DNA of 64,000 nucleotides from Magnolia sinica. Lineage: Eukaryota; Streptophyta; Magnoliopsida; Magnoliales; Magnoliaceae. Shown here one piece after another: positions 14,118 to 46,346 of this stretch (positions within the stretch are counted from its first letter, which is position 1; every line of letters begins with the position of its first letter). The stretch lies in assembly GCF_029962835.1 (NCBI RefSeq), contig NC_080574.1:20434001-20498000 (forward strand), in the 5' to 3' direction. Made by a program: the position numbers and the translations under genes. The notes beneath the pieces are model-generated. The model saw nothing but the letters and a program-made list of their open reading frames with translations, was not told the origin of the DNA and did no database searches.

Positions 14118-14279
14118 TTAAAAATGCTTCCCTCCACATACAAATGATTCTATAGCTCGGACTATTGCTTTAAAGATGGCCTTCTTCACTGACAACCTCT
14201 TCGGTGGGACCCTTCCAATCGGTCTCCCTCTTTCCCCAGTATCCACCGTCTCTGGCTTTGAATCATTCGGTCGACCCAT
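14118..14279 (-). CDS. Small basic peptide of the VPPKR family, copy 1
   Basis: A 53-codon frame from ATG 14279 to a stop at 14118. The protein has a polar N-terminal third containing DSKPETVD, then RPIGRVPPKR, then a basic amphipathic segment starting VKKAIFKAIVRAI, and ends SFVCGGKHF. It aligns without large gaps to the peptides at 27343 and 33167. The substitutions keep the PPKR and VKKAIF cores and the C-terminal Cys-Gly. I start at 14279 rather than at an upstream in-frame codon because this Met aligns with the start of copy 2 and lies about 35 bases downstream of a shared TATA-like box. No signal peptide is evident. From memory, short plant proteins of unknown function carry a PPKRGxVK motif; I cannot name a gene. 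Confidence 0.68.
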   Translation of the reverse strand: MGRPNDSKPETVDTGERGRPIGRVPPKRLSVKKAIFKAIVRAIESFVCGGKHF

Positions 14280-14309
14280 GACCCTCGCTTGAGAGAGTGG
14301 AGCGTGGAG

Positions 14310-14441
14310 GAACTTTAAATACAGGAAGGAGATTTGAAGTTGAAGCAACTTTACTCTGCAGGTGAACCTGGCAATAGTACCACTCTTATTATTTATCTTC
14401 CTTTAAACAAAAAAAGAGTTGGTTTTGCGGGCGTACGTGTC
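14310..14441 (-). promoter_or_regulatory. Conserved upstream region of peptide copy 1
   Basis: On the minus strand, TATTTAAAG (near 14312-14320) lies about 35 bases before the ATG. Upstream is a block shared with the other two copies (ggttcacctgc, gttgcttcaact). TACGTGTC, a G-box/ABRE-like word read on the plus strand, lies at 14434-14441. Conservation across the three paralogues, more than the motifs alone, supports promoter function. Confidence 0.55.
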
Positions 14442-15798
14442 ATTGGGACAGGTGAGGGCCGGGCTAAGTTCTGTCCAAGCCCAGCTGACAATTTTCAACA
14501 TAGGCCCTGGTCCTAGAGAGAGAGGTTGGAAGATGAGGGGGCATGGGTTTGAGAAGAGAAAAGGAGTGGTTGCTTGGGGTGGGCCGACCATAATGATTAT
14601 TTGAAATCCACTCCCCATCACTCGGTGCATCACCCCATTTTAGGCCGTAAGGGTCAAATATCAGCCCTATCGGTGACCACACGATTGAAAAAGTGTAGAG
14701 GAAGACACTTACCCTTCAAGCTGCTTCCCTTGATGCCGCCCACCTGAATTACAAATGGTATGATTTTTGGGGCCGTGGCTAACATATGGTGTGTCATCTA
14801 AATGCTAGATGATAGGATTTCATATAATCATTACAGTAGGCCCTGTAAAATTCAAGGGTGGACATCTCTACCGACTATTTCTTTTGATGGCCCCACATGA
14901 ATCCCATAATAGCCTTATTCTTTGCCCTGGGCCTAAAGTACGATTACACATACACAGTGAGTATCATCAAAAGCAAAAGTTCACCCTTATTATTTTATTT
15001 TTTCCAGCAAAAATAGAAGGCTAAGATCATCTCCAAAGTGAGACCACATAAGATGGAATAGATTATGGATGGCATCCAAGAGAATATGGACGGTTCGGAT
15101 CATTGTATCATCTCAGGATGTGGGTCCCAGTGGGTTGGGATGCAGGCAGGAATATCCTCAGTCGACACGGAAAAAAGGAACAAAAACACAATGTTAATAA
15201 TGTTACTAAGATGCTCACGTGGCCAAGAAACACGGATTGCTGCAGTTGCAGCCCTAATCTCTGTGAAGCACACCGTGATGTATGTGTTCCCACTGTCTTT
15301 ATCGACTTGCTTTTTTTTATTATTTATTTTTCTCGGTTAGTCACCCTTGGAGGGATTCGGTACCAAGACCTCAGTGTTGAAACAAGGTATTTTTCACTCA
15401 ATCTACCACTTGAGCTTATTTTAGGGCATGTGCCCAAACCATGGAGATCCAAAGCTTAAGTGGACCACACCGCACCAAACAATAGGGATTGAATGACCAC
15501 AGCTAGAAACCTCCTGCTGCTGGGGGCCACACCAGTTTTGAATCAAGAATTGATATTTTAGTTTTCCCTTGGTCTCGGTGGCCTGATAGAGAGAAGGCTA
15601 TATATCACAATAAACACTGGGATTGAACGCCTGAAACGTTCGTGTTGAACCGAACTCTACAATTATATTACAAAAACCCAAATCAAGCTGCAGTTTACTT
15701 TTCTTACCTTTTTTCTGCGGGGAGAGAGAGAGAGAGAGAGGTGGATGGGCTTATGATCGGATCCCCTTAATCCCTTAATATAACGAGAGGGCATGATT
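14442..15798. other. MITE-derived non-coding DNA
   Basis: Contains foldback interior words and a repeated gatttcatataatcattacag-type segment, plus a (GA)n tract near 15722-15740. No terminus pair or coding frame could be supported. Confidence 0.4.
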
Positions 15799-16240
15799 AA
15801 AATATACATCGTTTCTTACTTTGGTTAGCTTCTCACGTGTACTTTGGTTAGCTTCTCACGTGTGAACCCCTTTGTCCATCCATAGTGGTAGAGAAAATGT
15901 CACTTTGAAATTAGCTTGTTTGTCACGTGTGAAGCCTTGCGTCCATCGTTACTTGCAGAGAGAATATATAGGTTCCTTTGTATGGACGCAGATTGGGGTG
16001 ACACGTACTTCAATCAGGCCATGACCATGGACCTGATAGAGAGAAAGCCACTTTGAAGTTAACTGCTCGCGTGTGAAGCCTTTTGGCCATCCATACTGGT
16101 AGAGAGAAGGCCACTTTTGAAGTTAGTTTGTCACGTGTGAAGCCTTACGTCCATCCTTACTTGCAGAGAGAATAGGTTCCTTTGTATGGACGCGGATTAG
16201 GGTGACACGTAGTTCAATCAGGCCATGACCGTGGGCCCAC
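15799..16240 (+). repeat. Tandem repeat of about 204-208 bp with G-boxes
   Basis: Two main units: tgtcacgtgtgaagcc starts at 15921 and again at 16129, and caatcaggccatgacc occurs at 16011 and 16215. Shorter partial units precede them, including ttggttagcttctcacgtgt twice. Perfect CACGTG hexamers lie at 15834, 15857, 15924 and 16132. Confidence 0.8.
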
Positions 16241-17767
16241 CTCGATGAATACTTGTGGTCTTTAAGTGTTGGAAAACAAAAATAATTAAAAATATGCTCA
16301 CGCGTTTTATTTTTACAAAGGTGAGCCACTGTGTCTGCTGGATTCCAATGGATAGTGTCGTATGGAGATATGGGTGTGTTGTGCATGTGAAATTCACTTC
16401 TACCATTAGATGTATAATCCCATGCTAGACCTAAGCCCTAAAATAAAAAATCTAGTTTACCGTGTGATTTATGTGAGCCTGCCAAAGAAAACAGATAAGA
16501 AAGAAATGGGGATCATTGACTTTTTACAAAGCACATATAATAATAATGCAAAATCCATTTGAAAATGTGATTTACAAATTTAGGTCTGGACCTCCAAAAA
16601 TCAGGACAATCTGTAATTCAGGTGGGTTACACTGAGGGAAATAGATTGGAAGGTGAGCATCATCCTGTCTACTGTTTCCAAAAATGTAGTCCGCCTAAAA
16701 CATTAACGGGGTTGTTTTTTCATCCTACTCTTAAAGTTAGGTTACAAATGCAATTAGCATCAACGCTACATGGGGAGAGTGGTTTTGGGTCAACATGTAG
16801 TATCTCTTGGGGATAAGTAAACTTTTACCATTTTCTACGGTGAAAGGAATATTTAATAAAATAATGAAAGTAAAGATTATTCTTGAAATAAAGCTAACCA
16901 ATATGCACTTCCTTTGAAAAAAAAAACAAAAAACAAAAATCAATTTGGAACCTTTCCTTCTCATATTACCAACGAATTTCGAATAACATGGGCTCACAAA
17001 TTGGATGGATGGAAATGGATATAACACAAGTGTCATGGTGGGCACCTGGTACTTTTGTTACACAGGCTCTCGTTATATATAAAAAAAGGGTTTTGCTTGG
17101 GTAACCCAGTCGTTCCACCAAATGGATCTTGGCTCGGGTAGGCCCCATTGTGATATTGAAATAGCCCACGGCCTCCTATCATCAGTGGTGGACCCCAATC
17201 ACTTTCAAGCGTGTCTTGGTGTCCAAAAATGCATAAATCCCATGGTTTTTATTCTTTTATTCCTTCTATAGTTAATGTTGCCCTTGCATTGTTAAGCCAA
17301 AACACCAGCATAACTCAGAATAAGTTGCTGGAGGGGGTCACATAAGTTTTGAAATGTCCTAATTTTAGGGAATCCATTAATCCTGACCATGTGCATCAGA
17401 TGAGAGGATTGGATAGTATAAACACACCATGGTGGACTCCATGTATAATCTGGGAAATTTTTAACGGTGAATTAAACTTGCCATCTCAACTGTTTCCCAT
17501 GGTGTAGACCGCCCACCGGATCTTTGAATCAGTCTCAGTTTTGGGCCCGGTCCAGGTCTTCATACCTAATGGATAGGTGATCTGACCCACGTGAAGTCGT
17601 GCCGTCTGCAGCAGCAATGAAATCATGGCCGCGTCTGCCTACGAAAGTCAGACAATCGTTTTCAACTATCAATTGACGGCACTAGAGTTCCCGCGACCTG
17701 CGCACGTTCACAAGCGGCGTGACTTTTGCCCTTCAAGCGCACGTGGGAGAGTGATGTCATGTGTTAA
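16241..17767. other. Non-coding DNA with MITE fragments
   Basis: Short stretches of foldback-type words occur near 16410-16470 and 17400-17600. Nothing else is recognised. The frames present have atypical composition and no domain. Confidence 0.4.
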
Positions 17768-18470
17768 TGGAGAAGGACCGGACCGAGCCAGCTCGGTCAA
17801 CTTGCTCGACTGGGCTTGATAAAGCTCGATGTGCTCGGTTCCAAGCTGAGTTCGATCCCAGTCGAGCTGGAAACTGAGTTCGAGCTGGCCCGAGTTCAAC
17901 TCGACTCGGTTCCATATATGACTCGAACTGGCTTGACTCGGATCGTCTCCTGTAAATAGTGAAAAGAAAAGAAAAGAAAAAAAATCCTATATTTACCTCC
18001 TTTTCCTTTCATTAAAAAAAAATTCACCTGGCACCAAACCCTAGCTCTCTACCTCTCTCAAACTTTGCTCATCCTAGACTCCTGCCTGACCAGCATCGGC
18101 TTTGCCTCCCTCTCTCTGCTTGTCCCGCCCAACTAGTAGCGAGCCAACAAGTCCGCCTCTCTCTCTCTCTCCCTCTTGTCCCACCGCCTGCAGCAATGGC
18201 TCTGCTCGAAAAGTCGAGCTCAAACTAGTCCAATCTGTTGATCGAGCCGAGGCCAGCTCGACTCGGTCCAACTCGATGCACACCCCTAGACCAGAGTCCT
18301 ACCTTTTGCACCATTTAAAAAAAGTGCCTCATCCTCTCATGTGTTATAACTAATAAACCGGCTCGACTCAGTCCAACTCGATGTACACCCCTAGACCAGA
18401 GTCCCACGTTTTGCACCATTGAAAAATAGTGCCTCATCCTCTCACGTGTTATAACTAATAAATGCCTATC
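17768..18470. mobile_element. hAT-like low-complexity fragment with tandem 3' ends
   Basis: Carries the 'ctcgactcggtccaactcgatg' composition of the local hAT-like family and its right terminus tgtacacccctag, here present twice. The left terminus is lost. The right end plus ~85 bases of flank is duplicated in tandem with a period of 105 bases (starting 18256 and 18361). Confidence 0.65.
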
Positions 18471-18501
18471 TAGATTAGGGATATCAATGGGCCCTAATGA
18501 C

Positions 18502-18640
18502 CTTTTTTTTTTTACACACGCACACACACCCCACACACACGCCGTAGTGAAATTTCACCACCTATGGGTACTCAAACCCTTGACCCGGTGATGAAACTCC
18601 CGAGAGTCTACCACCCGAATCGAGTAAGAGTAAGGCCAAG
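18502..18640 (-). mobile_element. tRNA-derived SINE (minus strand)
   Basis: On the minus strand it has a pol III B-box-like segment (ggttcgag is here ggtttgag), the family-specific ccataggtggtgaaatttcac, a GT-rich tail (gtgtgtgtggggtgtg) and a terminal poly-A (T run at 18505-18514). It matches the copies at 26056 and 32204. Its target duplication is unclear. Confidence 0.7.
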
Positions 18641-20498
18641 CTTTCTGGCTCAAGGTTTGGCCCAAGGTTTGGGTTGGGGTTTAAAATTCAAGCCCGCTTC
18701 TTAATCAGGTGGGCATGGACTGTGAACAAAAGCCATCAGTCCAGCCCATTAAAGTGGCAAGGGCAAAGGAATTTTAAATTATAAATTTCACAAAACCACC
18801 TAACGTATATAGAATTTACGTTTTGGTGCCTTTTTCAAAATGTTTTTCAGTAAGCTGCCTTAAATCTCCTAATTATCATCCCACTTCCTTTTCGTTACAT
18901 TTCTCAACCCCTTGCTGCAGCAGTGAACTAGATGATGGCGCGAGTAGGTCCCATCATGATGTTTATGTGAAACCCACCTTAACCACTAAGTGCTTCACCC
19001 AATTTGAGCCCACAGCCTAAAAATCACCCTCATTAGGGATTTAGATGGACCAAATAATTGCAAACAATACATTGGTCAATCCTCACCTTTCAAACTATTT
19101 CCCTTGGTGTGATCTAGATGGGCCTGATTTTTGGGTCTCTATCTTTATTTTTTAATGACATCTAATAATTAGAGTGGATTTTGTAAAATCACCACAGTAG
19201 GTCTTATAAAATTCAATAGTATTAGCCTAATTTCCAACCTTTTCCTTTAGTATCACTCAATGTTATCACAAGTCAACCTAATTTTTTATTTTATTTTAGC
19301 TGTGGGCCTAAAGTGAAGTTATATATCTAATGGTTGGAGTAGTTTTTACATCCACCATGGCGGCCCTGCCAAAAATGCATCCATCATTCATTTCTTTAAA
19401 AAGGTAAGCTTCATATTAAAAAAGAAAAAGTCCCCATATTTGATTTTTTACTAGGCTGTGAGATCCACTCCAACCATTACATATGTAATCTCACATTAGG
19501 CCCAGAGCCCAAAAACGATATATTGACCTGTGAGATCAAGTGGGACATACCAGAGGAAAAAGTTGAGATACACGTCCTATCTTAAACTTTATAGGGTCCG
19601 CTATGATGATTATATGAAATCCACTCCAACTATTAGATACCACGCCAAAATTTTGACTAAAAGCACATCCGTGATTCAAGTGGGCCACACCATTGGAAAT
19701 AGCTTGGAGGGTAAGTGTTGCCTTTTGTACACTGTTTCCAACAGATTGGTCCGCCTGAATCACCAATGGAGATGAGTTTTGGGTCTTAGTCCATAAAACC
19801 AAATATTACATTGATTCGAGTTCCTAACTGGCTGATTGGTGAGTATTTATTGAACGGTCAAGATAAAAAAATCATCAACAGGCAGCGTCAAACAACAAAA
19901 TGACCACTAAGTCACAGCGTATGAAGCGCCATACTCTAACAGAGTATGTCAAGCTATCCTTACCATCCGGTCAATGTATTTAATTTTTCAAATGTTGATG
20001 GTACTGTTTTCAGCAGAGTCATCATAATGAACCCTACAGAATAAACGTCTCATGTCACTATATGCCGTGGGACCCACTCATTCCTGGCCAAATAGTTAAA
20101 AATCTAGGCCGAAGCTGACCTCAGGCCTAGCCTGTTGACAGTCCTTTGCCCAAACTGGTACTTTTTAAGTGGATTATCCTGTAGGTGTGTAAATGGGTCA
20201 GGTTGGAGTCATCACAACCTCAATCATTTTTGTAATGGACTGACCTGCAGCCCATTACCGTGTAGGCTGACCAAACCCACTTAATATTCATAAGGTCTAA
20301 CCCGAGCTGACCCATTTAACTGAAATTGTGTAGGGTTTGACTGACCTGACTCAATGCAGCATGACCAAACTCATGTTTAAGACGGGAATATTGGGTAGAA
20401 GGTATGCCCAATGTCACGTAATTAGTGGATCTCTAAACCACATGTGGACATTGAATCTATGAGTTTGTTTCAGGTTTCGGGCTAGGCCAGGTTGGGCA
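18641..20498. other. MITE-rich non-coding DNA
   Basis: Several overlapping diverged inverted segments recur, for example tataatgtgaaatccactcc-type words near 18950, 19450 and 19610, and gtagtccgcctgaatc-like words. This is consistent with another short element family that I could not delimit. The region from 20170 to 20490 has tandem 'gacctgaccc' composition. No genes. Confidence 0.4.
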
Positions 20499-21037
20499 GG
20501 AGACGGATTGGCTACTCCCCCTGACACCAGCCCCGTGGCTGGTGGTCGGTACTCTGTGGGCCCCACCATGATGTATGTGTTTCATCCATTCCGTTCATCC
20601 ATTTTTACAGATCATTTTACAGGTTAATACAAAAAATGATAGGGATATAAATCTTAGGTGGACGACACCACAGGAAAACGATAGTGATTGGATATCCACC
20701 ATTAAACTCCTCCTAAGGCCAATTGTACTGTTTATTTGACATCCAATCTCTTGATTAGGTCATAAATACCCAGATGAATGGAAAAAATAGATATCAGCTT
20801 GATCCAGAACTTTCATGGCCCCCAAAACGTTTTTAATGGTCAAAGTTCATTCAACACTGTTTCCTGTAATGTGGTCCACTTGAGATTGAGATATATCTCA
20901 TTTTTTCTTTTGTTCCATAAAATGATCTATAAAAGTTTATGGACGGAATGGATGAAACACATACATCATGGTGGGGCCCGCAGAGCACCGACCATCAGCC
21001 AATGGCTGGTGGCAGGGGGAGTAGCCAATCCGTTTCC
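20499..21037. mobile_element. Mutator-like MITE, copy A
   Basis: The termini are inverted: the left begins ggagacggattggctactcc and the right ends ggagtagccaatccgtttcc. The 9-base flanks ggttgggca and ggttgggta match at 8 of 9 positions; 9-bp duplications are typical of Mutator-like elements. The two ~250-base halves are themselves diverged inverted copies, so the whole element is a long hairpin. It has no coding capacity. Confidence 0.82.
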
Positions 21038-21124
21038 GGTTGGGTAGGGTTCAACCCAAGTCCAACCCATTTAATTAACTGGTCCACGCTTTTAACATGA
21101 GTCGAACCCTTTTCACATTCAGGG

Positions 21125-21663
21125 GGAGTTGGTTTTTCAATTCTGGTGTAAAATACACGTAAATGGGTAATGTGATTAATTACACGTGTAATTTCGGTAC
21201 TTTTTTTACATTAATTTATTATTTATTATTTATTATCGATAGTGATGGCTTGCTTTTTACACTAAAATTGAGGAAGAAGCGAGATTTAAAGTGGGCCCAG
21301 TGTAATATATTTAGCTTATCTACGTCGTCCATCCATTTTGCAGGCTGATTTTAGGACATGAGTCCAAAACTGAAGTAGATCCAAAGCTAAAGTGAACCAC
21401 CCCCACGAAACAGTGGGTGGAATGCCCATCGTTAAGAACCTTTTACGACTACAATTTCGTTTGGTGTGGGCCACTTGAGCTTCATATCTACCTCATGTTT
21501 GGGCTTATGCCCTAAAATATTCCGGCAAAATAGATGGACGGCATAGATATGTCATGGACATCATAGTGGGCTGCACGAATTTACGTCAATTCCTCTATTC
21601 TCTTCCAGTAGCTAACTATCACCACCACACCAAATATGGATAAAGGGTAATTATTACCCTTTC
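21125..21663. mobile_element. Foldback MITE ending gggtaattattaccct
   Basis: The left part has gtaaatgggtaatgtgattaatta and the right end has gggtaattattaccctttc. The interior has the shared gtgggcccag / gatggacggcatagat halves. This resembles the Tourist-like element at 40021-40681 but with different ends. Confidence 0.55.
21558..21663 (+). repeat. 106-bp perfect direct repeat, copy 1
   Basis: From acatcatagtgggctgc to attaccctttc, identical as far as I can read to 22095-22200. The repeat spans the end of one MITE and brackets a second MITE interior. Confidence 0.85.
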
Positions 21664-22094
21664 CCCGGAGCTGGTGGTCGGTTCTCTGTGGGCCCCATCA
21701 TGATGTATATGTTTCATCCATTCAGTTCATCCATTTTTAAATATCATTTTATGTTTTTATCTCAAAAATGAGAGGGATATAAATCTCAAGTGGATCACAC
21801 CACAGGAAAACAATAGTGATTGGATATCCATCATTTAAATCCTCCTAAGGCCCTCTGTACTGTTTATTTGACATCCAATCCGTTGATTAGGTCATAAAGA
21901 CCCAGATGAAGGGAGAAAACAAAGATCAACTTGATCCAATACTTTTATGGCTCCCAAAAAGTTTTTAACGGTCGAAGTTCATTCAACACAGTTTCCTGTA
22001 ATGTGTTCCACTTGAGACTGGGATATACCTCATTTTTTGTGTATTAGCATAAATTGATCTAGAAAAATAGATGGACGGAATGGATGAAACACAT
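21664..22094. mobile_element. Mutator-like MITE interior lacking both termini
   Basis: Follows copy A (20499-21037) closely from ggagctggtggtcgg onward and ends at gatgaaacacatacatc. The ~25-base terminal inverted repeats on both sides are missing, replaced by the 106-bp direct repeats. Confidence 0.75.
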
Positions 22095-22200
22095 ACATCA
22101 TAGTGGGCTGCACGAATTTACGTCAATTCCTCTATTCTCTTCCAGTAGCTAACTATCACCACCACACCAAATATGGATAAAGGGTAATTATTACCCTTTC
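22095..22200 (+). repeat. 106-bp perfect direct repeat, copy 2
   Basis: Partner of 21558-21663, offset 537. The perfect identity marks a recent duplication or a repair event. Confidence 0.85.
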
Positions 22201-23896
22201 ATACATTGAACCCACCCTCATTGGGAAGAGGAAGGCTAATACAATTCACATCGAGTATGTCTATCCAAACAATTGGCTGAGGATGGCTGAGGAGCAGACA
22301 TCATGGTGGGGCCCACCAGCCCAAATGAAATCTCCGGCAGATTCCCGGGGGCAAATGGTCAGCAATTCAACTTCTTCATTCAATCGTTTACCATGATTGC
22401 ACGATCTTTCTCTTCGACAACCTCTCACCGTCACCTCGATTTCAAATCTCAAGAGTCCTAACTGCATCCAATGACTAAGACAAAAGTAAAATTTTTTATC
22501 CATGTTCAATCTCTGTCACTGATCCCGCATGCCAATTGGGCCCCACTTACATGAGGAGACGGTCGGAATTGAAATGATCCACCGCAATTGGGACCCAACT
22601 GATAACCCAACTCATTGTCCTGATTTCACGCACACGTGTGTCACGTTAGCACGTATCATGTGTACAACCTATCGTGTAGAAACTCATCCGGTCGCTTGTT
22701 ACTATATATGTCCTGATCTACAAGTGAGGCTTATGATTAGTTAATACATTGGCCATCACCATTACGAGAAATCTATCAGAATGGACGATCACAACCCTTC
22801 AAATTAAAATGTGGGCCATGGCTTTACCTTTTATCTTATCCATCTATATACTGCCCACAGGTAGAAGGGATTGGATCTTCCAATTGGGAGATATTTCCAG
22901 GGAGGTCCCTGATTTACATTAAGTTACAACTAGATAACAGTTTAGCTCACTGATCTGAACCATGGGCCCCACATACGGGGTCCACCAAACTGTCTTTTTG
23001 GAAGGCGTGGATTTTCAAATCACTTTGATTCAGTGGATGGTTGACATGGTTACCTACCAAATCAATGGTTCTGATTACCTTACACATGCATCACCTGAAT
23101 GGTGGGAATGCTGGAGAGAGTGAGCCCCACTTAGACCCTTCACTAATCAGTTACATCTCCATTGATACCTGCGCTTGTACGCAATTGGAAGAATCTGAAC
23201 CGTTAAGTTTGTGGGACACCACTGCTTGGACTATCCTAGCCATCATATGATAGGCAATCGGACTATATATTGATCACTTGGGCCACCATGTGAAGGAGCT
23301 ACTTATAAAATAGTACTTCAATTAGACTGCTAGCGGTAGAATTAGCATCCGGAAAATGGATGGCTGAAAAAGAACCACGCTAGCGTGAGGTACACCAAGC
23401 GTGCTTCCACGTGGATGTGGAACTTTCATGAGATCCACACCTTCCATCAGGTATGCTGCCTCATGTTCAGCAAGGAACCTAAAAATCAAGATCATCTAGA
23501 ACTCAGGTGGGTCACACCTGAGGAGAAAAATTATATTCATTGGGTGGTTAGTATCATAAATCCTAGCCATCAAGCGTTGAGGGATGGAATCATAAAGTGT
23601 AATGATCTAGTGGACTGAGTGGATGGAAAGCCTCTTATCCGAAGATAGTTCGAGTCTGAATTAGGACCGTCCGATTCTTGAGAATTTTGGACGTTAACAA
23701 AAGAAGAGAGAACTGGACCTGATGGACGATCCATATACGTGTGATGCATATAAATCCAATCGCAGCTATGTGCATGGACTTAGCCCACTAGGTCAAATCT
23801 CAATCAGAAAGTGGTCAACACTTAACAACCGACACTAAGTGCGTATTTTAAACGGTGAGGATGCGCTTTACGAGGAAGAAGAAGGTGGTCATCCAT
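22201..23896. other. Non-coding DNA, mostly unassigned
   Basis: Weak foldback-type words occur (gggccccacata, atggatggtt) but no termini. Several open frames exist but lack domain features and plant codon bias. I see no gene. Confidence 0.35.
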
Positions 23897-24437
23897 GGAA
23901 ACGGATTGGCTACTCCCCCTGCCACCAGTGCGGTGGCTGGTGGTCGGTGCTCTGTGGGCCCCACCATGATGTATGTGTTTCATCCATGCCGTTAATACAT
24001 TTTTACAGATCATTTTAGTGCTTAATACTAAAAATTAGAGGGATATAAATCTCATGTGGACCACACAACAGGAAAGCAATAGTAATTGGATATCCACCAT
24101 TAAAATCCTCCTAAGGTCCACTGTACTGTTTATTTGACATCGAATCTGTTGATTAGGTCATAAAGATCCAAATGAAGGGAAAAAACAAAGATCAGCTTGA
24201 TCCAAAACTTTTATGCCCCCAAAAAGTTTTTATTGGTCGATGTTCATTCAACATACGTTTCCTGTAATGCGGTCCACTTGGGATTGGGATATACCTTATT
24301 TTTTGTCTCATACAATAAAATGATCTATAAAAATAGATGGACGGCATGGATGAAACACATACATCATGGTGGGACCCACAGAGCACCGACCACTCACAGC
24401 CATTGGCTGGTGGCAGGGGGGTAGCCAATCCGTTTCC
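23897..24437. mobile_element. Mutator-like MITE, copy B
   Basis: The left terminus is GGAAACGGATTGGCTACTCC, the right its inverse ending ccaatccgtttcc. The 9-base flanks gtcatccat and ttcatccat match at 8 of 9. The interior is a long inverted repeat, as in copy A. Confidence 0.85.
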
Positions 24438-24616
24438 TTCATCCATGGCTTAGACAGGTGGTCCCCACCACTGGTACTGGGTCTTACGTTGACATGAATA
24501 GCCCACCTGGCGGACCAGGATTTCTCTGTCTATAAGACCTGGCAACAAGTTGGTTGATGCCTGCAGTGTGAAACGTTGAAACGGAGGGAGTCGTACAGTT
24601 CACGTGCTTCTGAGCT

Positions 24617-25142
24617 TGACGCGGATTGCGTGGTTAACCCAACACAACGCAACTATGTAGTTTAAGGACTCTGTGGGGCCTACCGTGATGTATGTGTTTT
24701 ATCCACACAGTCCATCCGTTTTTCCAACTCATTTTATGACTTGAGATCAAAATCCAAGAAAATCCAAAGCTCAAGTGATCCACACCACATGAAACAGCCG
24801 TGATAATTAAGTCCACCGTTGAAACCTTAGTAAGGCCCACAGTGATATTTATTTTCCATCCAACCTGTTAATAAGGTAACAGAAACCTGGATGATAGGAT
24901 AAGAAAATTTTCAGCTTGATCTAAAACTTTTGTAGCCCCTAAGAAGTTTTCAACGGTATGCATTCAATACCCACGGTTTCCTTTGATGTGGTCCATTTGA
25001 GGTGATGCTTAAACTTTCACTTCATACCCTTAGATGGGCTGAAAAAACGGATTTACGGTGTAGATGAAAACATACATTACTGGAAGGCCGAAAAGAGTCC
25101 TTACACTGCGTAGCTACGTGGTGTTGGTTCACCACGCAATCC
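24617..25142. mobile_element. Foldback element with gacgcggattgcgtgg termini
   Basis: The left end gacgcggattgcgtggttaac is matched inverted by gttcaccacgcaatccc at the right. The interior halves (gtgatgtatgtgttttatcc and gatgaaaacatacattac) are inverted copies of the window-wide foldback core. Confidence 0.65.
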
Positions 25143-25222
25143 CCTAGCGGGTTCCACCAAATCTTCCACGCTAAAAATGGACGTTCACACTTGTCTCGAG
25201 ACAGTGGAATCAGCGCGGAATA
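25095..25222 (+). repeat. Diverged direct repeat flanking a MITE, copy 1
   Basis: From gtccttacactgcgtagc to cagtggaatcagcgcgg. It matches 25911-26040 with many substitutions. It includes the right end of the foldback at 24617-25142 and its 3' flank. Confidence 0.75.
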
Positions 25223-25224
25223 GG

Positions 25225-25872
25225 GAAGCGGATTGGCTACTCCCCTGCCACTAGCCCGGTAGCTGGTGATCGGTGCTATGTGGCCCCACCATGATGTGTG
25301 TTTCATCTTTTTTTAAGATCATTTTAGAGCTTTATCTTACAATTAAGAGGGATATAAATCTTAAGTGGACTACACCATAGTAAAACAATAATGATTGGAT
25401 ATCTACTATTAAAATCCTCCTCCGGCTCACTTTACTATTTATTAGGCATACAATCTAGGCCAAGGGAAAATACAAATATCAACTTAATCCAAACTTCTAT
25501 GGGCCCCTATTTTTTTTTTTAATGTTCAACATTTATTTGACACTGTTTTCAGTAACGCCGTCCGCTTGAGATTGTGAGATAGCTCATTTTTAGTCTCGTA
25601 CCCTAAATTGGTATCGATCCCTTGTGGGGTTGGCTAACAGTGAAGTGTCAACTGACAGTGGGGGTGTACTAATAAGCTTAAAAAAACAAAAAAAAAAAGG
25701 TCTCATGCAGGGGTATACTAACAAACTAATCAAAAAATATAAAAAAAGTCTTATACCATAAAACAATTTAAAAAAATAGATAGACGGCATGGATGAAACA
25801 CATACATTATGGTAGGGCCACGGAGCACCAACCATCAGCCAATGGCTGGTGGGGAGTAGCCAATCCGTTTCC
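25225..25872. mobile_element. Mutator-like MITE, copy C (decayed)
   Basis: The left end is ggaagcggattggctactcc, the right gtagccaatccgtttcc. The interior is broken by an extra ~120-base AT/A-rich insertion around 25610-25745. No 9-bp duplication is legible. It lies between two diverged direct repeats. Confidence 0.7.
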
Positions 25873-25910
25873 ATGGGTGAATATTTTATCAACGGTGGGT
25901 CTAACAAAAT

Positions 25911-26040
25911 CCTTACACTAGGTAGCTACATGGTATTGGTTCACCACGCAATCCGCGTCCAGGCTCCACCTAATCCTCCCGACCAAAAACGGGCGTTCAC
26001 ACTCGGCTCCAGACAATGGAATCACGAATCGGCGGCATGG
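25911..26040 (+). repeat. Diverged direct repeat flanking a MITE, copy 2
   Basis: Partner of 25095-25222; keeps gttcaccacgcaatccgcg and the flank gacaatggaatcacg. Confidence 0.75.
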
Positions 26041-26055
26041 ATTAGGTAAATATTG

Positions 26056-26199
26056 GATCCCCACTCTTGCTTGGGCGGTAGACTCTCACGAGTTTCAACA
26101 CCCGGTCAAGGGTTCGAGTATCCATAGGTGGTGAAATTCCACCAGCGCGTCTGTGGGGTGTGTGTTCGTGTGTATTAAAAAGAAAAAGAAAAAAGAGGA
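26056..26199 (+). mobile_element. tRNA-derived SINE with 9-bp TSD
   Basis: A pol III A-box-like ttgcttgggcggtaga near the start and a B box ggttcgagtat at 26111-26121 mark a tRNA-derived head. Next come ccataggtggtgaaattcc, a GT-rich region and an A-rich tail. The insertion is flanked by taaatattg at 26047-26055 and 26200-26208. SINEs are copied by LINE machinery, and a LINE 3' end with a similar A-rich tail lies 4 kb away. The family is shared with 18502-18640 and 32204-32336. Confidence 0.88.
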
Positions 26200-27342
26200 T
26201 AAATATTGTAACATCCGGGGGCTTTGTACTCCAGGTTTAAATTTCGTAAAAGTGGGTCCATGGTTCAGCCATCCAGATTGTCAATTCTTCAGGACTATGA
26301 TGGATTGTCCTGGACAGAGAATTCTTATCCATTCACCTGGAGGCATACAAGTACGCTGGATAAGGAATAGATCAACAACGGTCTGACATGAACTAAAGAA
26401 AGGGCTGGCATTGGCGGGGTCGAGTGGGAGATATTTGTGTCATTTTCCATCCAAGGTTGGCCACATCACCTGCGCCATTGAAAAATGGCCTCCCCTTGTA
26501 TAATTTTTAATCCAAGATGGGCTCCGTAAACAAGGGATGCAGGTGTAGAATATCCAAATTTTATTGAATTAACGTTTTATCATCTATCTAACATTTGGCA
26601 AACGTGTACAATCAATCAGGGATGTCCAAATTGTAGGGCCCAATTGTAGAAGCAAAAGTCCAATGATTGCACACTGATCGGACAATCTTAACCATTGAAT
26701 TGGTAATAATAAAACAGTCAGTGGTCCAAATTCAGTAGAAAAATCAGATGGTTAAGATCATCCTATCACACATGGAAGTTGTGCACCATTTATGGACTCG
26801 GACCAACTTGCTCGGCCCAGCGTAGAGTAGGGAAGTGACCAGGGTGACTCGACTCGTACGATTGGCATTGGACCCGTCCATCCAAGTCAAGCTCAAAATT
26901 CATAACCGAATGTAAGATTTAATTTCCAGAACTCCCAAAGGATTTTGTTGTGCTTGTTGTGCATTGGATATGAAAATCTTCTTAGCGTGATATCAGTGCG
27001 GTTAATAAGGATGTTGAGGTCTTCTTTCCCTGACACCTCCGAGAAGTTAGGATAAGGCTCAAGCTTTTGTCAATGGTGTTGGATTGAGAATACAACAATA
27101 TTTTATATATGTGAGGGTGGAAGGGTTTGAAACCCACCAAAACTACTTTATGAAGCCTATGGCTATCCCAGCTTCACTCGAATACAAATCCAAGCATGAT
27201 AGATTAAAGAAAACAGAAATTAGTGCATTACAAATCATTGTTTTGTATATAATAATATCAGAACAGAAATTCACGTAAGCAGACATTTCAACTAATAAAA
27301 ATGGTGCATATTAATATAGTAATTACAACTGAAATACATTTA
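26200..27342. other. Non-coding DNA upstream of peptide copy 2's 3' end
   Basis: No terminus pair or coding frame is recognised. The last ~20 bases (aatacatttac) are shared with the 3' flank of peptide copy 3, so the duplicated block extends slightly beyond the stop codon. Confidence 0.35.
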
Positions 27343-27519
27343 CTAATCCAAGTTGCCACAATGATCTCCACATAAAAGGGATGCCATAGCTTGTGCTATT
27401 GCTGCAAAGATAGCCTTCTTCACTGCCCCCCTCTTGGGTGGGACCCTTCTAATCGGACTCCCTCTTCCTACAATCTCGGTTGTCTCCGGCTTTGGATCCT
27501 TTGATGGACCCACGATCAT
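27343..27519 (-). CDS. Small basic peptide of the VPPKR family, copy 2
   Basis: A 58-codon frame from ATG 27519 to TAG at 27343. The order is an acidic/polar N terminus with DPKPETTEIVGRG, then SPIRRVPPKRG, an amphipathic basic helix candidate beginning VKKAIFAAIAQAM, and a tail with LLCGDHCG. It has one Cys at the conserved position and a second four residues later. It is 58 residues against 53 and 47 for its paralogues and looks the most intact. The ATG lies about 45 bases from a TATTTAAAG box on the minus strand, leaving room for only a short 5' leader. The ~500-base block containing it (about 27320-27820) is paralogous to 33145-33580. The function is unknown to me. Confidence 0.7.
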   Translation of the reverse strand: MIVGPSKDPKPETTEIVGRGSPIRRVPPKRGAVKKAIFAAIAQAMASLLCGDHCGNLD

Positions 27520-27558
27520 TCTCACTCTCCCTCCATCTATGGAAGAGTGGAGTGAGGA

Positions 27559-27722
27559 ACTTTAAATAGGCAAGGTGACTTGCAGGTGAAGCAACTCTAG
27601 TCCCTGGAATACTAGCAATAGTACCACTGGTGTGATTTCTCTTCAAATTTTTTTTTTTTTAATAAACAAAACAAAACAAAACAAAACAAAACAAAGGAGT
27701 TCGTTTTGACTTGCGTGACTCA
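27559..27722 (-). promoter_or_regulatory. Conserved promoter of peptide copy 2
   Basis: On the minus strand, CTATTTAAAG (27560-27569) is the TATA candidate. The block up to about 27640 is shared with copies 1 and 3. A palindromic TGACTCA (27716-27722), the GCN4/bZIP type of site, sits about 150 bases upstream at the same relative place as in copy 3. An (AAAAC)n tract lies between. Confidence 0.6.
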
Positions 27723-28780
27723 AGATCCAGCTTGCATCGGGGCTCACCGAGGCCAACATGTTATGTGGTCCAAACCATCCATGTTATGAACTCTATGCTA
27801 CAGGGTACCACTGCAATATCCGTTTGATCCAAAACTTTTGTGACCCATTCGAAGTTTTTAATAGTTAATCACTACTATTTCCTATGGTGTGGTCCCTTGA
27901 GATTTGGATTAGCTTCATTTTTCCATCATTTATTTCCTAAAATGAGCTTTCAAAACGTGTGGACAATGCCAATGTAAGGCATACACATAAAGGTGGGCCC
28001 CATAGTTAGGGATAGACCCAAGCCGTCCAACGTAGATAAACATAGAAAAGTAATAAATAGAATTGTCAGGTGAGTTTCATGGTTTATATTGTTAAAATTG
28101 CGAATCATCCATCCTTCCAAGTGCCAGTATATGGATGGATAGGTTTAATTTTTCGAATCCTTTATAAATATCATGTAAATAAGTAATTATTATTTTTACA
28201 TCCTGTTTGAAAAGTAACATGTATTTATCATCCGTAAATATGTCAAAAAGAACTTGTTTAAATGCGTGGGCCTCACTGTGATATATAGGATATATCCGCT
28301 CCATCCATCTATTTTAATAGAACATTTTCCAAGGTGAGCAGAAAAATGAGGCAGATCCAATGCTCAAGTGGCCCACACCAAAGGAAACAGTGGCCTCAAG
28401 AAGTTTTTAACGACAAGTGTTTGATTCCCTTTTTCCTATGGTGTGGTCCACTTGAGTTTTGGATCTTTCTCATATATTTTTTTTTCTCATGCCCTAAACT
28501 CAACCAGCATAATGGATGGACGGTGTGGATAAGCCACTTACATCATGGTAGGCCCCACATATATTTCAAAGTGCCCTCCGTTTTTGCCTTAAAAAAAGTA
28601 CGGGTCCAATCAAGCATTGAGAACAATAATAATAATGCGGTAATTACTTAATTAATACCCATTTACAACTCATTCACTGGAAGCCCCTTAACCTGCCACC
28701 TATTCGGTGGAAATATAGCTCTACCGTATCATTGTTCTTCAGATTCTACCGTGTCATCTTCCAGTTCAACTGTTTAAGAT
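27723..28780. other. Foldback-derived non-coding DNA
   Basis: About 27740-28020 and 28260-28570 carry foldback cores (gtgggccccat, gtgatatataggatatatcc, atggatggacggtgtgg). AT-rich arms near 28130-28260 and 28620-28680 may be the ends of one element of the taattatt type, but I could not fix them. Confidence 0.45.
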
Positions 28781-29320
28781 GATGGAAACGGATTGGCTAC
28801 TTCCCCTGCCACCAGCATATGGCTGATGGTCGGTTATGTGTGGCCCCACCATGATGTATGTGTTTCAAACATTCCGTCCATCTATTTTTCTAGATCATTT
28901 TAGGGTATGAGACAAAAGATGAGGTATATCCTAACCTCAAGTGTACCACATTACAGGAAACAATGTTGAATGAACGTGGACCATACAAACTTTTTAGGGG
29001 CCATAAAAGTTTTGGATAAAACTGATCTTTGTTTTTTCTCTTCATCTAGGTCTGTATGACCTAATCAAGAGATTGGATGTCAAATAAACAGTATAGTGGA
29101 CCTTAGGAGGATTTTAATGGTGGATATCCAATCACTATTGTTTTCCAGTGGTGTGGTCCACTTTAGATTTATATCCCTCTCATTTTTTGGATCAAGCCAT
29201 AAAATGACTTGTAAAAATGGATGAGAAGCATGGATGAAACACATACATCAGGGTAGATCCCACAGAGCACCGACCACCAGCCACTAGGCTAGTGGCAGGG
29301 GGAGTAGCCAATCCGTTTCC
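28781..29320. mobile_element. Mutator-like MITE, copy D, perfect 9-bp TSD
   Basis: Starts gatggaaacggattggctac and ends ggagtagccaatccgtttcc. The flanks gtttaagat (28772-28780) and gtttaagat (29321-29329) are identical. This copy gives the clearest evidence for a 9-bp duplication and so for Mutator-like mobilisation. Its interior is a long inverted repeat as in copies A and B. Confidence 0.9.
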
Positions 29321-29429
29321 GTTTAAGATTGTACACATTGGTACTGCCTTCTTTTCCAAGACCTAGGAAAGGCCACGAGGTTCATGTTTCAATGGGATCC
29401 CCGCGCGGAAGATCCGAGATGCAGGGACC

Positions 29430-29965
29430 GGCCCTGATTGTTTTTTTCAAAGCCAGTGTATTTGCACTGGAAATATGTAATTATTACGGTTTGCCGTGTT
29501 AGAAATTTCATAGGGTTTTGTGCCATTGAAATTAGTTTAAAAAAGATGATTTTAATTTTTGAATGGCACGGTAATGTATATGATATATCCGTTCCGTCCA
29601 TCTATTTTACTACAATAATTTGAAGCATGAGACAAAAAATGAAGTAGATACAACACTCAGGTGGGCCACACCAAAAGAAACAGTGGCCTTACAAAGTTTT
29701 TAACGGTAAGTATTCGATTCCCTTCTTTGTATGGTGTGGTTCACTTAAGTGTTGAATATATCTCATTTTTTTGTTTATATTATAAATTCAAATGGCATAA
29801 TGTACGAAAGGTGTGGATAAGCAAAATGTATCACAGTGACACTCATATATATTTTATAATGTTTATAAAAAAAAAAGTAGCTAAATCAGATATGTTGTAG
29901 ATATACAGGGAAATATTTATTACTCTTTTTCCTAGTATTTTCCGGTGCACTGGAAAATCAAACAG
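29430..29965. mobile_element. Foldback MITE with ccctgnttgattttcc termini
   Basis: Left ccctgattgtttttttcaaa and right ggaaaatcaaacaggga are inverted partners, followed inward by ccagtg/cactgg words and gtaattatt / aatatttatt. The interior again holds the shared foldback core (tatgatatatccgttccg). Confidence 0.65.
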
Positions 29966-30074
29966 GGAATCGAATACCAGTAGAAAGGACGATTCTAGCA
30001 CGTTAAAATGTTTCCTTTTCACATGCGGAGCTATATTTCATACGCAGCTGCATATGATACTTGATACTCAGGTA

Positions 30075-30400
30075 CTTAGATATTTTACACGTAGCACTAA
30101 TTAACTCAAAAGGACCGATTGCATCGTGGTACTCATCTAAACTATGTCAAATTTCAAAAAAGTATATTGTTTGGACAATCCTAACCCCTGATTCGTAAAC
30201 ACTTGTTTGTTGACATAAGACCGTTAGATAATTTCATTACAAATCGTCCACTGCGTGTCCACCAATCCGACCGTCAGCTGATCTTACATTTTGGTTTATG
30301 ATATATCTGTACAGGGACCCATATTTGAACAGTTTAGACTAACTTAGATGGGTGCCAAATATGCAATTTCTAAATAATCTTTTAGTGATTGCACCACATT
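30075..30400. repeat. Dispersed inverted duplicate, copy 1
   Basis: Matches 36215-36545 in inverted orientation: for example ccaccaatccgaccgtcagc here against gctgacggtcggattggtgg there, and tagatattttacacg against cgtgtaaaatatctg. It is diverged and non-coding. Confidence 0.75.
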
Positions 30401-30765
30401 CTCTCAGAGCATCAGAGTTTTCCTCTTACATTGAATTTGGAACCTTCTATTTTTATATTTTTTTTTCCTTGCTGGATAGTTGAAAACTATATGTCTGAAT
30501 CTTCAGAATTTGCAATCCACAATCATTTTGGAACATGTCCGAATCTACCGACCTTGTAATTCTATAGCATTTATGGGCATTTATGGGGTTCACATCTGAT
30601 CAATGCTTGGATAATCAAGTCATTGTGGAAAAATATCAGAGACATGTTCCCTGTAATGGATTTGAAGATCCGTTGGCAGAGAGGGAAGGGAGACAAGAAT
30701 ATTTGGAAGACTAATTTGACTGGTCTGGGTTTGCTGGAGAGCAGATCGACATTCCTTATTCCAGT

Positions 30766-31003
30766 TGAGTTGAAAGCCTTGGAAATCTGCAATTTTCTGG
30801 GAAAAGCTGGCCCTCTTCCGCCTTCTGTTGTCCCCTTATTACTTATACAGGATGATATTAACCACATTTTTCATAAGGGGTTCTGGAGTTGAAAGCCTTG
30901 GAAATCCGCAATTTTCTGGGAAAATCTGGCCCTCTTCCGGCTTCTGCTGTCCCTTTCTTACTTATACAGGAGGATATTAACCACATTTTTCATAAGGAGT
31001 TCT
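30766..31003 (+). repeat. 119-bp tandem duplication in the LINE
   Basis: gagttgaaagccttgg starts near 30767 and again near 30886, and both units run to cataaggngttctg. The offset of 119 is not a multiple of three, so the duplication itself breaks the frame. Confidence 0.85.
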
Positions 31004-31044
31004 GCACGGCTGACGAGCTAGCGCTCTAGGTCTGGCCGTACACG

Positions 31045-31394
31045 GTGAATGGGGAGTTCTTTGTGAAAACGGCTTGGGAGACAAGCAGGAGGTCCCGGCC
31101 CTGTATCGGATGGGCAAAGAGAGTGTGGCATCCCCTACTCCCTCCCAAAATTTCCCTGCTAGCGTGGAAATGCATTCAAGGTACGGTCCAGTCGAGTGCG
31201 CTACACAAGCTAGAGGGGTCTCTTTAGCTTCCCACTGCGTCTGTTGTGACAGGGCAGAGGGTCAGGTTCCTTCATGCGAAAACTCTCTCCATCTTTTTCT
31301 CCGTAGTGACTTGGCGGTTGCTATTTGGTCGATTTTCGCGGATATTTTCGGTAAGGCCAATCTGCCCATCTGCTCCATTGAAGAAAGGTTGTAG
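31045..31394 (+). pseudogene. LINE zf-RVT domain remnant
   Basis: The first half (to 31227) reads NGEFFVKTAWE then W..LLPPKISLLAWK, the characteristic start of the reverse-transcriptase zinc-binding domain. The second half continues in another frame with CVCCDRAEG, a CxxC pair, and SLHLFLRSDLAVAIW, the usual HLF...W end. A frameshift near 31200-31230 and a stop separate them. The family is common at the 3' end of plant LINE ORF2 proteins. Confidence 0.8.
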
Positions 31395-31670
31395 TGCTGG
31401 TGGAGCGGTCCCCCTCTTCGAGGCTGGGGTGGGATTCTCAATAAGCTAATTCCTTATCTAATTCTTTGGAAACTTTGGGTTGGAAGGAATGAAACAAAGT
31501 TTGAGGGTCGGCATCCCCATTGGCAGACTCAAGTCTCCCAGATCAAAGGTAGGACGCTAGCTATCATCAATTCTAAGGTCCCTGCGCAATCCTACTCATG
31601 GGCTACCAGCAACATTCTAACAGGTCTGGGGATCTCGGTTCCTGCCTTTGCCCCTAGAAGGGCCCAAGTA

Positions 31671-32228
31671 TTGAAGTGGGCCAGATCTCCGACTAACTGG
31701 GTTAAGTTAAATGTAGGTGGGTCTTCCTTGGGGAATCCTTTCAATGCGGGGGGTGGAGGCATTTGCAGAGGGGAACATGGGGATTTTATATTCGGTTTCT
31801 CGGCAGATTATGGGGTGCTGACGAATACAGGGGTTGAAATTAGAGCGGTCCACGACGGACTGCTGCATTGTCTAAACAAGGGTTTGGTTAACATCATCAT
31901 AGAATCTGATTCTCAGCTGGTGGTGAACATGCTCACTGGGAAGTCTAGTCCAGGCTGGAAATAGAAGTGTTGGTGTAACAGGATCAAGGATCTGCTGGCC
32001 ATGGTTCAAGCCAAATTTCAACATATCCTAAGGGAAGGAAACGGGCCAGCGGATGCATTGGCTAGGCTGGGAAGCTCCTCACAATCCTCCGTTTTATTCT
32101 CGAACAAGTCGGGCCTCCCGCGTGTGGTTAGAGGGCAGATCTATTATGGAAAGAAGCAGATATCTCACAAACAAAAGTTGTTCAAAAAAAAAAGTCAATG
32201 GGGATCCTTACTATTGCTCCGGTGGTAG
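31671..32228 (+). pseudogene. LINE RNase H (RVT_3-type) remnant
   Basis: One frame interrupted by a TAG at 31962-31964. It has the RNase H order LNV-x-GSS, then EIRA, IIESDSQLVV and GPADALARLG. The first catalytic Asp is replaced (VGGSS instead of VDGSS), while the later Glu and Asp positions are still present. With the stop and the lost Asp it cannot be active. Such domains degrade the RNA strand during LINE reverse transcription. Confidence 0.85.
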
Positions 32229-32336
32229 ACTATTGGGAGTTTCAACACATGGTCAAGGGTTCGACTATCCATAGGTGGTGAAACCCCATTACGGCACGAG
32301 TGTGTGGGGGTATGCATGCGTGTTAAAAAAAAAAAG
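32204..32336 (+). mobile_element. tRNA-derived SINE next to the LINE tail
   Basis: Has the family's tggtagac head, a B-box-like gggttcgactat, ccataggtggtgaaacc, a GT-rich region and a poly-A tail at 32325-32335. The flanks gtcaatgggg and ggtcatgggg are an imperfect ~9-10 base duplication. It inserted directly after the LINE A-tail. Confidence 0.8.
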
Positions 32337-33166
32337 GTCATGGGGCCCACTTGTAACAGTGAGTAATTCGGTTGTACTTAGATATATACTTCTGTACTTG
32401 GCATGCAAGTAAGATGAGGACGCAGTTTGGATAGTGTCACTGCCACTAGCCACTGTTTTATCCATGACGTCCATCCATTTTTACATATCATTTTAGAGAT
32501 TGATTCCAAAAATTAGGGGATATAAATCTCAGGTGGACCATCAGTTCGGTAGTGTGTGGTACACCAGCCAATCCGATTTCCCACCTAATCGGCTCTCAAT
32601 TACACAATCCTCTACCCCACGTTCTGCTCTGCAGGCTCATGTTTTTAGTTTGTACTAATGAGGCCAAAGATAATGATCGAAACATTGCCATATTTGACCC
32701 AATGTAGAGGATGTGGATTTATTGGGAAAGCCTTTTGCACGAAGTTCCCGTGATGGGTTGTTAGGTGTGGCCCACAGTGATGTTTGTGAGAAATCAACAC
32801 CATTCATCCATTGTGGGAGCTCATTTAAGGACATTCGACCTAAAATGAGGTAGATCTAAAATTTTGGTGGTTCTTTGTGCCAGCTGTATGCATAACTACG
32901 TATAACCTTGTTCTATCCCACGAGCTATTTGCCTGCAATATATCAATAGTCTCAATCACTTTGAGAATGTTGGACTAATGCTTCAAGGACATCATGATCA
33001 CACGTGCTTCAACATGTTTTTAACATTTTGGTGTCTTTTATTATTTTATAGAAATTATAAATCTATAATTTACACTATCAATTAATTATTTTTATTATTA
33101 TTTTATTTTATAAAAAATCACGGCAGTTACATTAACATTCATGTGGTAATTACAGCTGAAATACAT
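32337..33166. other. Foldback fragments
   Basis: About 32450-32580 is the right part of a foldback ending gtgtggtacaccagccaatcc, the terminus also found at 37766 and 38041. Around 32700-32880 another fragment begins ctgatgggttgttagg. 33040-33120 is AT-rich. No gene. Confidence 0.45.
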
Positions 33167-33305
33167 TTACGAATGCAGGTTACCACGATGACGCTGCTTC
33201 CCTCCACATAAAAGGGATACCATAGCTCGTGCTATTGCTGCAAAGATAGCCTTCTTCACTGCCCCCCTCTTGGGTGGGACCCTTCTCCCTCTTCCTTCAA
33301 TCTCG

Positions 33306-33310
<5 letters not shown>
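33167..33310 (-). CDS. Small basic peptide of the VPPKR family, copy 3 (short)
   Basis: A 47-codon frame from ATG 33310 to TAA at 33167. It keeps EIEGRG, RRVPPKRG, VKKAIFAAIARAM and LLCGG, and ends QRHRGNLHS. Against copy 2 it lacks three residues (SPI) through a clean 9-base deletion. Its N-terminal third is gone: the corresponding DNA is now a (CT)n microsatellite. The present ATG lies at the junction between microsatellite and core, so the start may be fortuitous. It may still be translated, since the TATA-like box remains about 50 bases upstream, but it could equally be a decaying copy. The divergence between copies 2 and 3 looks mostly conservative in the core. Confidence 0.58.

Positions 33311-33354
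<44 letters not shown>
33308..33354. repeat. (CT)n microsatellite
   Basis: About 22 CT units, directly upstream of peptide copy 3 (GA on the coding strand), replacing the sequence that encodes the N terminus in copies 1 and 2. Confidence 0.9.
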
Positions 33355-33356
<2 letters not shown>

Positions 33357-33357
<1 letters not shown>

Positions 33358-33487
33358 AACTTTAAATATAGCAAGGAGACTTGTAGTTGAAGCAACTCTA
33401 CTCGCAGGTGAACCTAGCAATAGTACCGCTGTTATGGTTTACCTTCATTTAAACAGAGGGAGTTCGTTTTGCATCTGGTGTGACTCA
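33357..33487 (-). promoter_or_regulatory. Conserved promoter of peptide copy 3
   Basis: On the minus strand, TATATTTAAAG (about 33360-33370) is a strong TATA candidate. The block through 33430 (gttgcttcaactac; ggttcacctgcgag) is shared with copies 1 and 2, and TGACTCA lies at 33481-33487. Confidence 0.6.
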
Positions 33488-34431
33488 AGATCCAGCTTTC
33501 GTCGCGGCCAGCCGGAGACAACATCTTGAGTTCTCCAAACCATCTATGCTATGAACAATATGCTACATGGCATCACTGCAAGAAAGTTAGGATGATTGCT
33601 ACTATAACCATAGGGAGATGAACTTGGAAAAATGTAAATAAATAAACAAAAATCAAATGGCTCTCATTTAACTCTAAAAATAGAAGGTTAAGCTTATCTA
33701 TGAAACCATACTAGAATAAACTATAGGTATATATGCCAATATTTATGATTTCAATTCATCTAAGTGGGAATAACCTTATAATATTTATGTTTTCAATTCA
33801 TCCAATTGGGAATAACCTTATGTACGATTTGGATGGGATATGAATATCATAGTGAGAACGGGTCCACTTGATTTTTGCATCTACCTCAAATTTTGCCTCA
33901 TATCTTAACTTGAGCTAGCGTTAACTGATGGACAGAAATGGATTTATGGCGGACATTGGGAGGCCCACATAGAGGTCAATGGGCCGAGGTCGGGCTGCAA
34001 CAATAGAATATTGAATAAGGCCCGCCCGGACCGGCTGAAAACAGTTCAAAATACGGGCCAAGACCAACCCCAGGCTTGGCCCTTATACATTCCTAATGAA
34101 AGAGCTTCCGATGATATGCGCTGCCTGGTGCGGCACGGGAAAATCATATCCCTTGCCCATGATAAGTACATTGTACATCATGCTCGTATTTTCTTTTGGA
34201 AGTGGGGCCATGGTATAGTGATCCAGATCGTTGATATGTTAGACTACAATGCAGATGGGACATTCCCAAAAATTTCTCAGGTTGAAAGATCATTGACCAT
34301 CTTCACGGATCAGTATGGATCGCTGCTAGGTTTCTTTCGTTAACCGCCCAATTTTCGGAAACAAATTGGTTGTGCATGAAGGAGATTTTTTTTAATTTTT
34401 TGTTTTTTCACAAGCTAAAATCCTGGAGAGC
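33488..34431. other. Non-coding, unassigned
   Basis: To about 33580 it is paralogous to the upstream flank of peptide copy 2. A ~42-base direct repeat ('tatttatg.tttcaattcatc') occurs at 33750 and 33785. The open frame near 34011-34343 has no domain I recognise and I do not call it. Confidence 0.4.
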
Positions 34432-45802: not shown

Positions 45803-46343
45803 TGTTGGGGACAAAAGATACAGAGTTCGGAGACTCGGACTTAATGCCTCGGGTCGCCAAAGGATGTGTCAGATCCGAGGCATGGTTCACTAAACCGAGA
45901 CAGAAGTTAAGTCGGTTCGGACGACACATCAGTGATCCGGGCATGCATCGGGCCGATCTTCTTATCAGATCGGCCAGCGCAAGATAAAACCTCATCCCGA
46001 ATATCTTGGGATAAGATCCCCGACCCCGAAGCTCACGGGATCGAATGAAGACTGGAGATGGGTACGATCCTATCTCCGTGATACTAGGAGAGGATCCCGC
46101 ACACGATATCAGGAGGAGAATCCTCGTACGATTAAATGCTCCAGCAGCTATAAAAGAGGAACCTTCATCGTCTTGTGAGGTAGGCAAAAATTCTTTCTCA
46201 AAATCCCTCAGTACATTTAGACCCAGAATCCAGGCCTGACTTTGGCATCGGAGGGTCCCCTGCTCAAGCTAGGGTCTCCTTTGTCCTCTTTCCGTGCAGG
46301 TATACGAAGGTCTAAGAGGACGAACCAGATTTTTGCATTAACA
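45803..46343 (+). repeat. 5' LTR of the gypsy element
   Basis: Begins TGTTGGGGACAAAAG, ends GCATTAACA. A TATAAAA box lies at 46149-46155. It differs from the 3' LTR at about ten sites, all transitions. Confidence 0.93.
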
Positions 46344-46346
46344 GTT

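Follow-up and report, generated by a model that had tools for sequence, protein, structure and literature searches.

Within a stretch of 64,000 nucleotides of the Magnolia sinica genome (positions 20434001-20498000 of contig C2, NC_080574.1; hereafter the window), three short minus-strand frames, A (14118-14279), B (27343-27519) and C (33167-33310), probably represent small coding genes of a tandem array, which is itself part of a family of basic proteins distributed over four loci. That this family is real and coding can be put forward with high confidence, while A is, on balance, predicted to be translated and the prospects of B and C fall slightly short of even. The frames had been noticed from the letters of the window alone as a three-member family of tiny basic peptides, and their extents from ATG to stop (53, 58 and 47 codons) proved exact.

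Genome-wide searches over 1,838,573,281 bases in 127 contigs place the supposed trio within a seven-member tandem array on C2. With protein B as the query, all seven matches fell on the minus strand of this contig between 20448130 and 20624524, i.e., within 176 kb, and none contained an internal stop; the four further members have their own ATG each and comprise 66-71 residues. A query with the array member L010 gave ten matches. Six of these were on C2; the other four, on C8, had E values of 0.36-0.58 each and all lay on one strand within 375 kb. The C8 frames are intact (e.g., PPKRGQIKAHIF and PPRRGQIKAKIF), and one of their proteins used as a query led to nine matches, of which six were on C8, two on C2 and one on C6. 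The C6 member (RPPPKRGQIKSRI) in turn matched itself, five sequences on C8 and three on C1, such as RPIPKRGQVKAAI. Since the genome searches score the best candidates only, the resulting number of at least 17 open short frames (seven on C2, six on C8, three on C1 and one on C6) is a lower bound. Three of the four loci (C2, C8 and C1) are tandem arrays.

In all 17 sequences, P[KR]R-x-x-[VI]-K-x-x-I precedes a hydrophobic stretch, with P, R, K and I invariant at fixed spacing, A, B and C included. The members on C8, C6 and C1 resemble A, B and C in having a short open frame without visible intron and P[KR]RG-x-[VI]-K-x-x-I followed by the hydrophobic stretch, copy A having Leu where other members usually have Gly, but they differ in the GQ[IV]K form of the motif and in their tails. 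The C-terminal Cys-Gly, initially named as a common trait, holds for A, B and C but for only these 3 of the 17 and, like the TATTTAAAG block, sets them apart from the members on C8, C6 and C1. Profile comparison by hhalign, which covered C2, C8 and C1, gave a probability of 95 (E 2e-8) for C2 against C8, 86 for C8 against C1 and 77 for C2 against C1; the membership of C6, a single sequence, rests on the protein searches and a DNA pattern. This pattern, encoding PP[KR]RGQ[IV]K, occurs seven times in the 1.84 Gb, each time in a family member (six on C8, one on C6), and its reversed control once. DNA-level genome searches recover just A, B and C. An unrooted tree, which lacks support values, places array neighbours as closest relatives (A, B and C; L009 and L010), the pattern that unequal crossing-over would leave.

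Given that the region is packed with repeats, the block might be suspected to be a transposon fragment or another repeat with an open frame by chance. Dispersed copies were however not found: over the whole genome, a 300-bp query taken from C finds nothing beyond A, B and C, with the reservation that this search skips very common words and its uniqueness is not absolute. The paralogues, moreover, are tandem arrays with a conserved motif, and we hold this origin to be very improbable.

A, B and C resemble one another far more than chance would allow (tblastn E 9e-14 for A to B and 3e-15 for B to C), and their alignment bears out the shared RVPPKR, VKKAIF and Cys-Gly, extending over RVPPKR-x-x-VKKAIF and then a hydrophobic stretch (Table 1). 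Each copy reads as one open stretch, in agreement with the earlier description as intronless, which is judged here from the coding frame alone. Neither B nor C uses the start codon of A. The position of A's start codon is GTG in B, where an in-frame ATG two codons upstream can replace it; the leader of B also holds a 4-codon upstream frame, ending 2 nt before the ATG of B, which may lie inside or outside the transcript. In C the N-terminal part is replaced by a GA microsatellite, with a 13-nt gap where B is coding, and the edge of the microsatellite supplies the ATG; two internal gaps of 9 nt each relative to B are both in frame. A local profile search of C2 20434001-20698000 revealed two further, eroded relics, in which the PPKRG part is gone and the motif decayed while the frame is still open.

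Table 1. Coordinates of copies A, B and C, their cores and upstream boxes, and related segments.
Feature	Position	Strand	Remarks
Copy A	14118..14279	-	53-codon frame; start aligned with that of L007, a more distant paralogue
Core of A, RVPPKRLSVKKAIFKAIVRAIESFVCG	14133..14213	-	motif and the segment corresponding to the predicted helix of B
TATTTAAAG box of A	14313..14321	-	42 nt before ATG
Copy B	27343..27519	-	58-codon frame
Core of B, RVPPKRGAVKKAIFAAIAQAMASLLCG	27367..27447	-	predicted helix, residues 32-51
TATTTAAAG box of B	27560..27568	-	49 nt before ATG
Copy C	33167..33310	-	47-codon frame
Core of C, RVPPKRGAVKKAIFAAIARAMVSLLCG	33203..33283	-	motif core
TATTTAAAG box of C	33360..33368	-	58 nt before ATG
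Duplicated block	27310..27816 vs 33137-33581	-	68.8% identical; coding frame and ~300 bp upstream
Family relics	L021:703-954, L023:5281-5544	minus	segments duplicated, 91% identical

The claim that these genes are kept by selection stands, modestly, for the family: besides the four invariant positions, codon models gave a ratio of nonsynonymous to synonymous rates (dN/dS, omega) for the core of 0.58 among seven members (p 0.045) and of 0.53 among eleven (p 0.006). Columns gapped in more than two of the seven members, or in any of the eleven, were removed, and the p values are approximate because the omega=1 likelihoods were computed on a grid of kappa values; for the whole alignment, the test against omega=1 gave p 0.044 with kappa fixed at 1 and p 0.13 with kappa free. 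The eleven-member omega is likewise approximate, since the C8 clade falls inside C2, beside L010, in the underlying tree, which is probably a long-branch effect. In pairwise comparisons of the core, A, B and C against L008-L010 showed a dN/dS of 0.24-0.44 in all nine cases (dS 0.8-1.5, dN 0.26-0.38, with some dS above 1 and near saturation), and of 0.52-0.76 against L007. No gap columns occur in the coding part of any of the three C8 pairs tested, compared with 64-152 in the 400 bp upstream and 34-52 in the 200 bp downstream. The neutral chance that no stop would have arisen on the seven-member tree, in a calculation that counts substitutions only, is 6e-5.

Conservation had also been proposed for the promoter. 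DNA similarity and the TATTTAAAG box do extend upstream of A, B and C, with no clear excess, however, over the farther flanks. In the coding part that B and C have in common, 3 of 103 sites differ; the counts are 11 of 68 for the proximal promoter, 43 of 164 further upstream and 20 of 81 downstream, so that the regions around the coding part are 16-26% different and the promoter is not clearly above the farther flank in conservation (11/68 vs 43/164, p 0.12). Copy A shares no recognisable similarity with the other copies beyond about 150 bp upstream of the ATG and thus provides no yardstick from a wider flank. Promoter conservation in these recent copies mostly reflects shared ancestry. As the synonymous sites of B and C are also unchanged over 35 codons, local gene conversion explains the conservation of the coding part at least as well as selection. 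No TATTTAA box was found within 350 bp of the other eight upstream regions examined, nor was there an excess of W-box, as-1 or G-box elements in the 500 bp upstream of 11 genes; TGGGC[CT] occurred 10 times in front of these genes, where a crude shuffle without multiple-test control gives an expectation of 3.5.

The lack of synonymous differences between B and C, together with an upstream block that is as conserved between A and C (12% different) as the core (17%), would also fit an RNA or regulatory DNA element in place of a coding frame, and B folds somewhat better than its shuffles (z -2.3). The folding of A (z -1.0) and C (z -0.3) does not follow this, there is no Rfam match within the window, and the deeper paralogues hold the amino-acid motif while their synonymous sites are near saturation; an element of this kind is very improbable, and the idea of an RNA structure was set aside on the weak folding.

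Basic character is common to all 11 proteins computed, with a net charge of +4 to +12 and an isoelectric point (pI) of 9.6-11.9. The description of the basic segment as amphipathic was not upheld, as the helix moment exceeded that of shuffles (p<0.05) in only 3 of the 11. AlphaFold, run on the three window sequences, returned a single helix (residues 32-51 in B) with the rest unstructured. Charge and tandem turnover would be in keeping with secreted, membrane-lytic antimicrobial peptides. Against such a role, no hydrophobic N-terminal signal is visible by eye (the only basis of this judgement), the helices of 8 of the 11 do not significantly exceed their shuffles in amphipathicity, and the cysteines are not conserved across the family. 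The weak and variable amphipathicity speaks mildly against membrane lysis, and we consider an antimicrobial function quite improbable. Among the 11 of the 17 proteins that were scanned against Pfam, DVL included, none matched any family at E up to 10. A profile of A, B and C found a sole match in the PDB at E 0.43, taken as chance, and no relative among viral contigs and GTDB genomes; a literature search with motif strings and topic words returned no paper on such a plant family, judged by titles and the opening of abstracts.

Several observations weigh against A, B and C as working genes of a constrained family. With regard to the family as a whole, the single E values between arrays are weak (0.16-4.8) and it is a short motif that connects the loci; omega outside the core is 0.94 and that of the whole C8 frame 0.85, neither different from 1; dN/dS of the L009-L010 core is 0.86, and the coding part of this pair carries 16 gap columns. 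In none of the four pairs compared does the coding part show significantly fewer substitutions than the 200 bp downstream (p 0.14-1.0); its substitution level lies below that of the upstream stretch only. Four of 11 upstream regions are without any TATA-like box within 350 bp, and the AlphaFold model, built from three input sequences, has a mean predicted local distance difference test score (pLDDT) of 62. Concerning the three copies themselves, their core omega alone is 1.09 and the dN/dS of A with B and with C is 0.86-1.07; B and C differ by four nonsynonymous and no synonymous changes over 35 codons, and by ten and three, respectively, in a longer alignment of 43 codons. The original prediction had named a ratio near 1 among the three as telling against it, and about 0.9-1.1 is what they display, so selection is not borne out for these copies, which are the least constrained members of the family. 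An unbroken frame at the divergence of A and B has a 44% neutral chance, and openness alone is weak evidence because the relics in L021 and L023 stay open too. Finally, the start codon of A is absent in B and the N-terminus is absent in C.

The same observations, i.e., omega about 1, the 44% neutral chance, the altered starts and the relics nearby, would be expected if, within a genuine family, A, B and C were a side branch on the way to pseudogenes, made up of neutrally drifting duplicates with frames not yet broken. We consider this a serious contender, with a substantial though minority probability. It is countered by the low divergence of the B-C coding part relative to its flanks, which gene conversion could equally produce, by the two 9-nt gaps of C staying in frame, and by the motif and TATTTAAAG box being intact in all three copies. 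A, B and C may thus be working young copies or decaying ones, with a slight lean to A as working and B and C about even.

The three copies form a closely related branch of a C2 tandem array of at least seven and probably arose through repeated unequal crossing-over; gene conversion probably also homogenised B and C over the coding part, and relaxed constraint may have let their starts change. Each protein, of about 47-78 residues, would be largely disordered, and the motif with the single helix following it could dock either on another protein or on the surface of a membrane. Most likely the protein is intracellular, and it can be speculated that it is expressed on demand, probably as an inducible modulator of a stress response. 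We favour this docking helix and stress modulator as the mechanism, though at a probability well below even. More doubtful still is a broader proposal, in which P[KR]RG-x-[VI]-K-x-x-I and one helix define a plant family outside Pfam, a magnolia tandem array of this family is diversifying via gene conversion and start-codon turnover, and A, B and C would be newly arisen, working versions of a micropeptide in stress signalling.

The window contains further elements. Direct repeats of 543 bp at 45802-46344 and 54867-55409 are 98.2% identical and enclose plus-strand matches to gag, protease, reverse transcriptase (RT), RNase H and integrase, with frames in several pieces; from its sequence, this element is a fairly young long terminal repeat (LTR) retrotransposon, presumably Ty3/gypsy-like by its domain order. 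Another pair of direct repeats, of 716 bp and 99.7% identical (2525-3240 and 6471-7186), has further internal duplications nearby and a weakly gag-like frame between the repeats (4333-4989, below the Pfam cut-off), and is perhaps a recent non-autonomous LTR element. The minus-strand interval 803-2071 holds a Ser/Arg-rich stop-to-stop frame of 422 residues, without a Pfam family at E 0.01, whose likely start, MGTCMSRCASSS, resembles an N-myristoylation site. Copies of a largely palindromic repeat of ~440-540 bp lie at 20499-21037, 21663-22107, 23897-24437 and 28784-29320; they are 85-87% identical, occur in both orientations and resemble miniature inverted-repeat transposable elements (MITEs). 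An RNase H-like plus-strand frame with an RVT_3 match (31395-31964) is perhaps a remnant of a long interspersed nuclear element (LINE), and the adjoining frame 30560-30892 has no Pfam match.

Annotation readily overlooks short genes in repeat-rich plant DNA, and the motif of this family is sharp enough for a bare DNA pattern to detect it. Should the family have orthologues throughout the flowering plants, as may be the case, the 17 copies would constitute a ready set for learning the binding partner of the motif. B and C, with their altered start codons, furthermore illustrate how small genes in a tandem array disappear or are remade.

As to known proteins, Arabidopsis At2g18210 and At4g36500, presumably short proteins with a similar motif, are candidate relatives of the magnolia family. 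At2g18210 is described as a 'protein of unknown function' whose expression rises soon after H2O2 is formed in chloroplasts (PMC3485569). An entry for At4g36500 in a list of genes regulated by singlet oxygen reads 'similar to unknown protein (At2g18210.1)', and H2O2 is stated there to raise it too (PMC4071827). The expression on demand and the stress role suggested above are a guess that leans on this presumed resemblance to the Arabidopsis proteins. Among plant polypeptides encoded by small genes, ROT4/DVL are short and basic. In these traits they are like the magnolia proteins, from which they presumably differ in their conserved C-terminal motif, and none of the 11 magnolia proteins scanned matched a Pfam family.

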